NCBI GenBank assembly: GCA_017397315.1
Contig: JAFQJA010000020.1
Location: 1-61,002, forward strand
Source: Clostridia bacterium
Lineage (GTDB): Bacteria > Bacillota > Clostridia > Monoglobales > Firm-18
Reading direction: 5' to 3'
DNA: 61,002 bases
Shown here: in pieces, positions 36,800-40,726 of the stretch
How the letters are laid out: each line of letters begins with the position of its first letter
Position numbering within the stretch: the stretch's first letter is position 1
Program-made: the position numbers and the translations under genes
The notes under the pieces: model-generated
The model's input: only the letters and a program-made list of their open reading frames with translations
Database searches by the model: none
Told to the model about the DNA's origin: nothing

Positions 36800-37946
36800 C
36801 GGTTTCAACTCCCTCAAGCGACCTTTCCATCATTGGCTGTAAATCCAGCAATGCCTCACTTTTTTTAATTTTTTCAAGGACCGGTTTTGTATTGGGATGT
36901 TTCGGTGTAAATACAGTGCAACAATCCTCGTAAGGCAAAATAGAGGTTTCAAATGTACCTATTTTTCGGGCAATAGTAATAATCTCATCTTTATCCATGC
37001 CAATTACAGGGCGGAATACAGGCAAATCAGAAGCATCATCTGTTACTCCTAAAGCCTGAATTGTCTGAGATGCCACCTGACCGATGCTTTCACCTGTAAT
37101 CAGTCCCAATGAACCGTTTTTCTTTGCAACCGCATTTGCTATATACATCATAATTCTTCTCATTATAACAGTCATTTGCTCTTGCGGGCATTTTTCATTT
37201 ATTGCAAGTTGAATTTCAGTAAAAGGAACTATATAAACATTAATCCTACCGCAATAGTCAGCAAGAATTTGTGCTAATTCCAAGACTTTTTCTTTTGCTC
37301 GTTCGCTTGTGTAGGGATAACTGTAAAAATGAACAGCATCTATTGTTACCCCTCTTTTTGCAACCATATATCCTGCAACAGGACTGTCAATTCCGCCCGA
37401 CAACAACAAAGTCGCTTTGCCGTTTGTACCAACAGGCATTCCGCCCACACCCTGAATTTTTGACATATAAATATACGCAGCAAAATCTCTTATTTCTACC
37501 ATAACAAGTATGTCGGGATTGTGAACATCAACTGTTAAGTTTGGATTATTATCTAAAATCGCTCCTCCAACCTCCATAGACACAACAGGAGATTTTATAG
37601 GAAAGTTTTTGTCTGCTCTTTTTGTTTCTACTTTAAATGTATTTCCTTTTTCATTTTTTATAAGATTTGCCGCAAGTTCACAAATTTTGTCTAATTCCTT
37701 TGGAACGGTGTATGCAACAGTAGCTGAAACTATTCCAAAAACTTTAGACAATCTTACTGCAAGGCTGTCCATATCAACAGTGTCGTCTAACGCCTCTACA
37801 TAAATAGTTGCCTGAGCCTTCCATATTTTGACTTTTTCGCCAAATGCACTTTGCTTCAAATTTTTTATAAGAGCATCTTCAAATATAGGTCTGTTAAGGC
37901 CTTTTAAAATAATTTCACCGTATTTTAAAAGAATTACCTTATTCAT
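36780..37946 (-). CDS. thiI: tRNA 4-thiouridine synthase / thiamine sulfur carrier enzyme ThiI
   Basis: 388 residues: N-terminal ferredoxin-like and THUMP RNA-binding domains (about 1-165), then the PP-loop ATP pyrophosphatase domain with LLSGGIDSPVAGYM (SGGIDS at 183-188). There is no C-terminal rhodanese domain, as in Bacillus-type ThiI, which takes sulfur directly from a dedicated cysteine desulfurase. Exactly such an enzyme is encoded just upstream with a 4-base overlap. It makes s4U8 in tRNA and may feed thiazole synthesis. Confidence 0.95.
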   Translation of the reverse strand: MNKVILLKYGEIILKGLNRPIFEDALIKNLKQSAFGEKVKIWKAQATIYVEALDDTVDMDSLAVRLSKVFGIVSATVAYTVPKELDKICELAANLIKNEKGNTFKVETKRADKNFPIKSPVVSMEVGGAILDNNPNLTVDVHNPDILVMVEIRDFAAYIYMSKIQGVGGMPVGTNGKATLLLSGGIDSPVAGYMVAKRGVTIDAVHFYSYPYTSERAKEKVLELAQILADYCGRINVYIVPFTEIQLAINEKCPQEQMTVIMRRIMMYIANAVAKKNGSLGLITGESIGQVASQTIQALGVTDDASDLPVFRPVIGMDKDEIITIARKIGTFETSILPYEDCCTVFTPKHPNTKPVLEKIKKSEALLDLQPMMERSLEGVETVVVKRR

Positions 37947-39073
37947 TTGTATTTCCTCCTGACAAATTTATTTGCCAAAACCGCTGACTTTAAGCATTCA
38001 CAAAAAAACTTTGCTTCTTCAATAGTGTTGTCATTACAAAAACTTAACCTTATACTGCTTTCAACAGTATCCTTGTCAAGCCCCATAGATAACAACACAT
38101 GGCTCAACTGCGGTTTGTTTGATGAACAAGCCGAGCCTGATGATACATATATACCGTTTTGTTCCATTAAGTGCAACAAAGTTTCTGACTTGAAGCCAAG
38201 AATTGATAAATTAAGAATGTATTTTGATGCGTTTTCGCAACTGTTAATAACACAACCGTCTATTTCTTTAGTAACAAAATCAATAATATAGTCTTTAATA
38301 GTACTGTCAAGGTTGTTTTCGTATATTTCTGCAGCCTTACCAAAGCCGACTATTCCGGGCACATTTTCAGTACCGTTTCTTATTCCGTTTTCCTGACCTC
38401 CACCGAGTATTTGAGGGGAAATCTTTATACCCTTTTTAATATACAGTGCTCCACAGCCTTTTAAGCCATTGACTTTGTGAGCAGATACTGATACCAAATC
38501 TATGTTCTTATAACTAACCGGCACTTTCAAAAAACCTTGCACATCATCTACATGAAACAGCGTATTCGGATTTTTGTCTTTAATCGTCTGTGCAATTTTC
38601 TCTATAGGCATAATTGCACCTGTTTCGTTGTTAACATGCATTATGCTTACCAGTAAAGTATCGGCATCAATCAAGGTTTCTAATTGTTCATTATCTACAA
38701 TTCCTTCTTTAGTTACATCTACATATTTAACATTATAACCTTGTTGCTCCAGTTTTTTAAAGCATTCTGTAACAGACTTGTGCTCAACTTTTGAAGTAAT
38801 TACCGTTCCTTTTTTACGAAGTGAATATACGCTTCCAAAAATGGCTATGTTGTTGCTTTCAGTTCCTCCTGATGTGAAAAACACCTGCTTTTCGTCAACA
38901 CACATTTTTTCAGCTATAACAGTTCGTGCATATTTAACGGTTTTTTCTGCGTTAAGCCCCATTCTGTGTAATGACGACGGGTTTCCGTAATTGTTCGTCA
39001 TTACCTCCAACACACTGTCTATTACTTCTTTTTTCGGTTTCGTAGTTGCACTGTTATCAAAATAGACTTCCAT
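37943..39073 (-). CDS. Cysteine desulfurase (NifS/IscS family, ThiI partner)
   Basis: 376 residues of a class V PLP enzyme. The Schiff-base lysine is Lys200 in SAHKVNGLKG, His98 (KVEHKSV) stacks on PLP, and the catalytic cysteine is Cys316 in SGSACSSNK, in the longer loop typical of group I enzymes. It moves sulfur from cysteine to a persulfide and passes it on. Its ATGA overlap with thiI indicates it is the ThiI sulfur donor (NifZ-like), rather than the iron-sulfur assembly enzyme. Upstream, 10 bases away, is the HAD-LuxS fusion. Confidence 0.94.
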   Translation of the reverse strand: MEVYFDNSATTKPKKEVIDSVLEVMTNNYGNPSSLHRMGLNAEKTVKYARTVIAEKMCVDEKQVFFTSGGTESNNIAIFGSVYSLRKKGTVITSKVEHKSVTECFKKLEQQGYNVKYVDVTKEGIVDNEQLETLIDADTLLVSIMHVNNETGAIMPIEKIAQTIKDKNPNTLFHVDDVQGFLKVPVSYKNIDLVSVSAHKVNGLKGCGALYIKKGIKISPQILGGGQENGIRNGTENVPGIVGFGKAAEIYENNLDSTIKDYIIDFVTKEIDGCVINSCENASKYILNLSILGFKSETLLHLMEQNGIYVSSGSACSSNKPQLSHVLLSMGLDKDTVESSIRLSFCNDNTIEEAKFFCECLKSAVLANKFVRRKYK

Positions 39074-39083
39074 TAATAACTTC

Positions 39084-40187
39084 CTATCTGTAAAATTTAT
39101 CTGAAAAACCGCTTTTTAAAACATTTTTTGCGTAAAGTTTAGCCTTTTTCAGACTGTGTAATTTGTAATTACCGCATTGAATTTCGTTTTGTGCGGATAT
39201 TTCAACTGTATCTAAAACTCTATTTAATGATTTATGTAATATGTCAATTACAAAATCAACCTCGGGCTCACCCCAGACAGTCATATAGAAACCTGTCCTG
39301 CAACCCATAGGCGATAAATCGATAATATCGTCAGTATAATCTCTTAAATATGTTGCAAGTAAGTGTTCTAATGTGTGAATTCCGTCGCTTTTCATTTCAC
39401 TGACATTGGGTTGAGTAAATCTTATATCAAATTTTGTAACAATATCGCCTGATTTTCCTTTTTGAGATGTGCACTTTCTTACAAAAGGTGCTTTTACTTT
39501 TGTATGGTCTAAAGAGAAACTCTCAACATTCATTTCTTTAATAAGCGGTAGTATCTCACTCGGATGAGAAATTATGTACTGTGCTCCGTTTTCAGTAAGT
39601 TCATCAATTTTTCTAAATCCCCAAAGAACGCCAACGGTATTAAGATTAGCACCACGCCCTGTTAACATATCGGTTTTTGTATCACCAAAATATGCACATT
39701 CATTTGATTTTACACAAAAATCCGAAAGTAACTTGTCTATCATATCGGAAGCAGGTTTCAAAGCATATCCTGAATTTCCTCCCATTACACCGTCAAACTG
39801 TATTTCCGGAAATAATTGTTCTACAACATTAACCAAAATATGATAAGGCTTATTTGACGCAATACCGATTTTATAACCCTCTTTTTTAAGTTCTTTCAGC
39901 ATATCGATTATTCCGTCATACGGTACTGTTTTAAACATATAATCTTGGTTATATATCTCATCATAGGTTTTCGCAACCTTGTCGTATAACTCTTTGTCGT
40001 CAATTCCAAGTTCGTTAAACATATTCTCAATTTGTTTCAAATAACCGTTTCCGACAAAATATTTGTATTTTTCGGTTTCAATAGACGGCAAATCGTATGT
40101 CGAAAGGGCAAGGTTGCCGAAATACGCCAAAGTATCAATCGTGTTTGCTAAAGTTCCGTCCATATCAAAAATACACGCTTTTATCAT
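39084..40187 (-). CDS. Fusion protein: HAD hydrolase + S-ribosylhomocysteine lyase (LuxS)
   Basis: 367 residues in one uninterrupted frame. Residues 1-217 are a HAD phosphatase of the phosphoglycolate phosphatase type: DMDGT (Asp8, Asp10), Ser111 in IASNKP, Lys144 in ALKP, and GDTKTD (168-173). Residues 219-367 are a complete LuxS: ESFSLDHTKVKAPFVR, metal ligands His271 and His275 in HTLEH, Glu274, catalytic Cys296 in SPMGCRTGFY, and ligand Cys338 in IQCGNY. LuxS cuts S-ribosylhomocysteine to homocysteine and the AI-2 precursor DPD. Met219 begins the LuxS part but has no clear ribosome site, so a fused product is expected. It overlaps the HD gene by 4 bases and precedes the cysteine desulfurase. 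Confidence 0.93.
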   Translation of the reverse strand: MIKACIFDMDGTLANTIDTLAYFGNLALSTYDLPSIETEKYKYFVGNGYLKQIENMFNELGIDDKELYDKVAKTYDEIYNQDYMFKTVPYDGIIDMLKELKKEGYKIGIASNKPYHILVNVVEQLFPEIQFDGVMGGNSGYALKPASDMIDKLLSDFCVKSNECAYFGDTKTDMLTGRGANLNTVGVLWGFRKIDELTENGAQYIISHPSEILPLIKEMNVESFSLDHTKVKAPFVRKCTSQKGKSGDIVTKFDIRFTQPNVSEMKSDGIHTLEHLLATYLRDYTDDIIDLSPMGCRTGFYMTVWGEPEVDFVIDILHKSLNRVLDTVEISAQNEIQCGNYKLHSLKKAKLYAKNVLKSGFSDKFYR

Positions 40188-40726
40188 TTTGTTGCCTCCG
40201 TAAGTAAATTAAGATACATTTTTTCGATTACTTCCATATCAACAAAATCAAGTAATGGCTTAGAAACAATCGGGGATGTTAATTTGAAAGCACCTTTATA
40301 TACATGGTTGTCCTCAAATTCCACGCATAAGAAATTGTCATCAATTTCACCTATTATACTGCGTTCTTCATCAGTTAAGCCATGTATTCCAAAACGCTTG
40401 TAAATACAATCCTGAATTGCCTTTTCCAGTTTGAAATATTCAGGCAAAAACTGTTTTACAGGTCTTGTAATATCTGAAATATAACCCTCACTCGCATCAT
40501 GTAAAAGTAAAGCCAGTTGTATTTTTTCGCTGTAACCACGAGTTTTTGCTTCGTTGTAGCAGTTTATACAATGCTGTGCAACTGAGTAAAAATGTCCAAG
40601 ATGTCCGTTTCCTCTGCACATCAAAGACAAAGAATGTGCTATATCAACAGGGTTTATGTCATCAGGTTTTGGGTTGGTAATATAAAACCTTATTCCGGTA
40701 TAAGTAACAATAAAATCCTTGCTCAT
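40184..40726 (-). CDS. HD-domain phosphohydrolase (YfbR-like 5'-nucleotidase group)
   Basis: 180 residues from the ATG at 40726, one base after the proS stop; a longer frame runs into proS without family similarity. The HD metal motifs are visible: His31 (DIAHSLS) and/or His52 (VAQHC), His76-Asp77 in LLLHDASEGY, and a late Asp in GEIDD. The layout TYTGIRFYITNPKPDDI followed by DIAHSLSLMCRGNG matches a group of small HD hydrolases also found in phages, with deoxynucleotidase-like activity likely. It overlaps the HAD-LuxS gene by 4 bases. Confidence 0.85.
   Translation of the reverse strand: MSKDFIVTYTGIRFYITNPKPDDINPVDIAHSLSLMCRGNGHLGHFYSVAQHCINCYNEAKTRGYSEKIQLALLLHDASEGYISDITRPVKQFLPEYFKLEKAIQDCIYKRFGIHGLTDEERSIIGEIDDNFLCVEFEDNHVYKGAFKLTSPIVSKPLLDFVDMEVIEKMYLNLLTEATK

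Follow-up and report, generated by a model that had tools for sequence, protein, structure and literature searches.

The window, a stretch of 61,002 nucleotides from a Clostridia bacterium, contains on its minus strand one uninterrupted frame of 367 codons that starts with ATG and has its sole stop codon at the end (Table 1). Pfam located HAD_2 at residues 5–187 (119.8 bits; cut-off 23.8) and LuxS (PF02664) at residues 220–360 (169.3 bits; cut-off 27), and the score for the NCBIfam LuxS equivalog NF002606 (222.7; cut-off 208) placed the protein in that family. The first-pass annotation, which gave no strand, had described a single frame joining a HAD hydrolase (residues 1–217) to a complete LuxS (residues 219–367), and this was confirmed by translation, by both profile collections, and by residue mapping. 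LuxS is normally a free-standing homodimer of approximately 150–160 aa per chain, with its active site at the dimer interface, and is studied as a drug and signalling target. The fused LuxS likewise has a complete domain above the curated cut-offs (PF02664; NF002606) with all metal and catalytic residues, whereas it is preceded by 218 HAD residues and no linker.

Table 1. Features of the HAD-LuxS locus (positions in the window)
Feature	Position	Strand	Remarks
HAD-LuxS fusion gene, 367 aa	39084..40187	-	ATG at 40187; stop codon ends at 39084; conserved in G001 and G002
HAD (C1-cap, Gph-like) phosphatase half, residues 1–217	39537..40187	-	D8, D10, S111, K144, D169, D173
LuxS half, residues 219–367	39087..39533	-	metal ligands H271, H275, C338; catalytic E274, C296; R256; S223/H228/K252
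Junction: HAD C-terminal helix (209–221 in the model) continuing directly into the N-terminal end of LuxS; M219 ATG conserved, no Shine-Dalgarno sequence	39525..39563	-	
GGAGG, ribosome-binding site 7 nt upstream of the fusion-gene ATG; shared by all three genomes	40195..40199	-	
Upstream HD-domain-like gene, 180 aa from the likely ATG	40184..40726	-	ATGA overlap with the fusion gene; weak HD_3/YfbR-like matches
Downstream class-V aminotransferase (NifS-like cysteine desulfurase)	37943..39073	-	gene order kept in G001

The upstream HD-domain-like protein may be a divergent nucleotidase whose translation accompanies that of HAD-LuxS. In a relative from the same genus (G001), approximately 260 bases (L053:2650-2910) separate the HD gene from the fusion gene; they are without counterpart in the window or in the third genome (G002) and look like an inserted repeat.

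Residues of both putative active sites were mapped. Ten positions of Bacillus subtilis LuxS (1IE0; S6, H11, K35, R39, H54, E57, H58, D78, C84, and C126), to which metal binding, catalysis, and substrate contact are usually ascribed, align with S223, H228, K252, R256, H271, E274, H275, D290, C296, and C338 of the fusion protein, and 10/10 are identical. The LuxS half therefore carries the HxxEH...C metal ligands, the catalytic Cys and Glu, and the substrate residues. Motifs I–IV of HAD subfamily IA (DxD, S/T, K, and GDxxxD) are represented by D8/D10, S111, K144, and D169/D173; across an alignment of 40 sequences, S111 is nearly invariant and the other residues are fully so. By these alignments, both active sites are complete, in agreement with the earlier description, with every HAD motif and all LuxS metal and catalytic residues present.

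The same 367-aa fusion was found in two further MAGs of the genus, RGIG9907 from yak rectum (G001; JAGCLT010000056.1) and RGIG2178 from goat colon (G002; JAFQVC010000050.1), with 92% and 91% identity, respectively, in gapless alignments without an indel at the junction, which is the same in 3/3 genomes of the genus. Synonymous divergence between the genus members was approximately 0.7–1.2 (NG86) and dN was 0.02–0.07, and, measured against synonymous change, these comparisons make the fusion an old one. The dN/dS values (NG86) were approximately 0.025–0.04 for the HAD half and 0.05–0.08 for the LuxS half, and such low values indicate that both halves are under purifying selection. The fusion is known from three incomplete MAGs (completeness of 84%, 89%, and 70%, the last being G002), and the origin of the window in an incomplete MAG could suggest an assembly or sequencing artefact joining two genes. 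However, the same junction recurs at a synonymous divergence of about 1 in three MAGs, whose host animals, as far as known, differ, and neither relative has the stop or frameshift at the junction that the first-pass annotation had named as evidence against the fusion. Because two more MAGs share the fusion with no junction indel at dS values of approximately 0.7–1.2, it is no assembly error; the artefact reading has a negligible probability and is, for practical purposes, refuted.

Separate polypeptides arising from internal initiation at Met219 had also been named as evidence against a fused product. Codon 219, at which the alignment places the beginning of free LuxS proteins, is ATG in 3/3 genomes, and both features would be compatible with part-time production of free LuxS beside full-length HAD-LuxS. 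However, the Shine-Dalgarno consensus match at M219 is 3 nt long, not above background, and belongs to the class seen most often at internal in-frame ATGs (161/342), whereas GGAGG stands before M1 in the window and in both relatives. Since M219 lacks a ribosome-binding signal beyond background and M1 has one, two separate products would be improbable, and we consider even part-time internal initiation very unlikely.

The distribution of the architecture was surveyed by LuxS family searches covering 100 relatives, 391 class-level and 398 phylum-level genomes (overlapping sets), and all 16 available genomes of family f22. Among the matches listed, the LuxS frames longer than 300 aa were HAD-LuxS (3/3 genomes of this genus), LuxS-MTAN (G023, G036, and G761), and a TadA-like deaminase joined to LuxS (G560), and no HAD-LuxS was found outside the genus. 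Long frames upstream of LuxS in G017, G727, G700, and G715 were all shorter than 300 aa, and Pfam, applied to that of G017, matched LuxS alone. The LuxS-MTAN proteins resemble HAD-LuxS in placing LuxS in a two-enzyme polypeptide, but there LuxS comes first and is followed by the enzyme of the preceding pathway step, whereas the HAD partner is N-terminal. A scan of approximately 85,000 species genomes with two HAD peptides, which was keyed on this HAD subfamily so that LuxS joined to a different HAD would escape it, returned the two sister MAGs as the only fusions among the loci listed; the remaining 78 loci matched essentially the HAD half alone. No plasmid record matched both halves by tblastn, and no LuxS relatives were found in the viral contigs scanned. 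The architecture is unusual, as the first-pass annotation had implied, and was confined to this genus of ruminant-gut Clostridia among the genomes searched and the matches listed. According to the annotation, such a fusion is not known to have been characterised, and we found no description of HAD-LuxS or of any natural LuxS fusion in the open-access literature searched. The gene is a real and conserved fusion of two known enzymes and is apparently undescribed.

Phylogenetic trees were used to examine the origin of the two halves. A LuxS tree of 119 rows placed the fused LuxS as sister to that of an f22 genome (G066; SH-aLRT 92; 76% identity; distance 0.4) within a starred 13-row clade, the rest of which consisted of f22 genomes. 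LuxS proteins from the own order (family f4 and others) were located elsewhere, across a long branch, and LuxS was not found in five genomes of the own family (G003–G007). The position inside the f22 clade and away from the own order suggests horizontal gain of LuxS followed by fusion behind a HAD gene, and horizontal gain is the simplest reading of the tree. The HAD tree placed the fused HAD nearest to a HAD of the same f22 genome (96/89 support), as might be expected from a joint transfer of both halves, but the distance of approximately 2 substitutions per site was far above the 0.4 for LuxS. Among the genomes of the genus, HAD and LuxS have diverged at comparable rates. In G066, the HAD gene and luxS lie on different contigs, and free-standing HAD homologues are common in gut Clostridia, across the order, and in the own family (G007, 46% identity). 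We read these data as pointing to separate histories of the HAD and LuxS halves and regard a joint transfer as conceivable. Synteny behind gpsA was dropped as evidence for a resident origin of the HAD half: the HADs that follow gpsA at L083, L094, L095, and L114 fall in a separate HAD clade in the trees. Read as a horizontal gain of LuxS, the locus clearly illustrates how an acquired gene can later be fused to another.

We then related the fusion to the S-adenosylhomocysteine pathway. LuxS is single-copy in the genome of the window and in both relatives, with the fusion as the only LuxS. Free MTAN above the NCBIfam cut-offs was found in the genome of the window and in G001 and was not found in G002 (70% complete), and a 789-aa MetH-like frame with a homocysteine S-methyltransferase domain was present in all three. 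SahH was not found in the three genomes, a provisional result from incomplete MAGs (84%, 89%, and 70%). Because LuxS and MTAN were found and SahH was not, the genus appears to recycle S-adenosylhomocysteine through MTAN plus LuxS, whereas three sister genera of the same family (G004, G005, and G007), in which SahH is present and LuxS absent, use SahH. LuxS may have replaced SahH, as far as incomplete genomes indicate. In the proposed route, MTAN, encoded by a separate gene, would convert S-adenosylhomocysteine to S-ribosylhomocysteine; the fused LuxS, as the putative sole S-ribosylhomocysteine lyase of the cell, would yield homocysteine and DPD/AI-2; and the MetH-like methyltransferase would remethylate homocysteine. 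The contrast between the sister genera and the fusion genus points to a change of S-adenosylhomocysteine route inside a single family. In the sister genera, SahH lies beside a PNP-family gene, probably encoding an MTA phosphorylase (G004:C1:237376-239367, G005:C22:17968-19966, and G007:C26:23725-25742).

Phosphoglycolate-phosphatase-like proteins gave the HAD half its best matches, both by profile (NF009695 and TIGR01449) and by fold (PDB 2hi0 and 3mc1). It shares the fold and the four motifs with Gph-like HAD hydrolases, but, besides being fused to LuxS, it scored far below the equivalog cut-offs for phosphoglycolate phosphatase (Gph; NF009695, 123 against 225; TIGR01449, 87 against 180) and below that for the pyrophosphatase PpaX (86 against 218). 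No substrate-defined NCBIfam cut-off was passed by the HAD half, which is probably a generic phosphoglycolate-phosphatase-like enzyme. The first-pass annotation had proposed a role on a phosphorylated sugar or an AI-2-related compound, or simple tethering as the alternative. A more specific form of the first proposal is that the HAD half is a pathway enzyme that dephosphorylates a sugar phosphate linked to SAM by-products, such as 5-deoxyribose-1-phosphate or phospho-DPD, which would make the protein a bifunctional detoxification or signal-control fusion. Precedents exist: a HAD-IA phosphatase dephosphorylates 5-deoxyribose-1-phosphate in Synechococcus elongatus (PMC8102628), the LuxS-MTAN proteins of other Clostridia demonstrate that pathway partners do fuse with LuxS, and a curated MTAN-phosphatase fusion (NF005213, PRK06698; 459 aa) links a phosphatase to MTAN, which belongs with LuxS to the two-step S-adenosylhomocysteine route. 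However, in NF005213 the phosphatase is joined to an N-terminal MTAN; HAD-LuxS has no MTAN domain, and its HAD half has no close match to this entry, which is outside its best 25 NCBIfam matches. A pathway link would also predict related HAD genes near luxS elsewhere, and the finding of none at 118 other LuxS loci (0/118), most with at least 1 kb on both sides, counts against it. Moreover, this HAD subfamily occurs in genomes without LuxS (e.g., G007, G035, and G048), and the MTAN route yields an unphosphorylated sugar, so that an additional kinase or phosphorylase would be needed. We consider the pathway-phosphatase reading unlikely, and slightly less likely still a bifunctional enzyme whose HAD half acts on a phosphorylated metabolite of SAM by-product or AI-2 metabolism, so that dephosphorylation and LuxS flux or AI-2 output would be coupled within one polypeptide. 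The generic Gph-like subfamily, the scores below the cut-offs, and the absence of related HAD genes from the luxS loci lend the proposed AI-2 or sugar-phosphate role little support, and simple tethering fits best. Should the HAD half prove specific to the pathway, a phosphatase step so far missing from the metabolism of AI-2 or SAM by-products would come to light.

An AlphaFold2 monomer model (mean pLDDT 84.8; pTM 0.66) was built from 40 sequences, only three of which, nearly identical, cover LuxS, and its inter-domain geometry is therefore not to be trusted. The HAD half was mostly at pLDDT of approximately 90–97, and a PDB fold search with the model recovered both the HAD and the LuxS folds. 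The HAD C-terminal helix extends into the first LuxS residues, and its continuity over residues 209–221 means that no flexible linker is predicted. The weak segments of the model (residues 223–229, 260–266, and 334–340) include, or lie next to, positions that align with the LuxS active site (S223, H228, and C338). Such weak segments would be expected if the second subunit of a dimer were needed. LuxS is a homodimeric metalloenzyme (PMC6371041). The absence of a linker and the predicted continuous helix would fix the HAD rigidly near the LuxS N-terminus (S223 and H228, corresponding to B. subtilis S6 and H11), as might be expected if the HAD half were no longer relevant as a phosphatase and instead helped the acquired LuxS to fold, stay stable, or dock. 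We regard this as quite unlikely, given that the HAD catalytic residues are all conserved and that dN/dS is even lower for HAD than for LuxS.

We favour, with a probability of roughly 0.6, the reading that gene fusion has tethered two independent, catalytically complete enzymes, of which LuxS would act as the S-ribosylhomocysteine lyase and HAD as a generic phosphatase. Under the tethering reading, LuxS would have been gained horizontally from an f22-related lineage, luxS would have been fused in frame downstream of a HAD phosphatase gene, and the protein would form a (HAD-LuxS)2 dimer held together by LuxS, with the HAD domains outside and engaged in general small-phosphate phosphatase work. 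The fusion would provide co-expression and tethering, probably with neither a new reaction nor channelling. We counted in its favour that an unrelated N-terminal partner of LuxS, the TadA-like deaminase of G560, also exists. Retention in three diverged genomes counts weakly against pointless tethering, the argument being weak because re-splitting would need a new ribosome-binding site. As a natural fusion under selection, the gene indicates that the LuxS N-terminus, close to residues aligned with the B. subtilis active site, tolerates a linkerless 25-kDa domain.

Other unusual luxS arrangements were encountered in the searches. LuxS with a C-terminal MTAN (PNP_UDP_1) is encoded at L033:4394-5596(-) and L034:3834-5006(-) in G023 and G036 (f4) and at L217:4198-5328(-) in G761 (f20); the f4 and f20 groups are apart in the LuxS tree, possibly reflecting two origins of this natural two-step fusion. 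The TadA-like deaminase domain and LuxS of G560 (f20) occupy one open frame at L218:5025-6026(-), either a fusion or the result of a lost stop codon. On Clostridioides difficile NZ_CP149720.1, classed as a plasmid by its record, luxS is clustered with genes for a methionine synthase activation domain and a homocysteine methyltransferase (L260:3995-7518).
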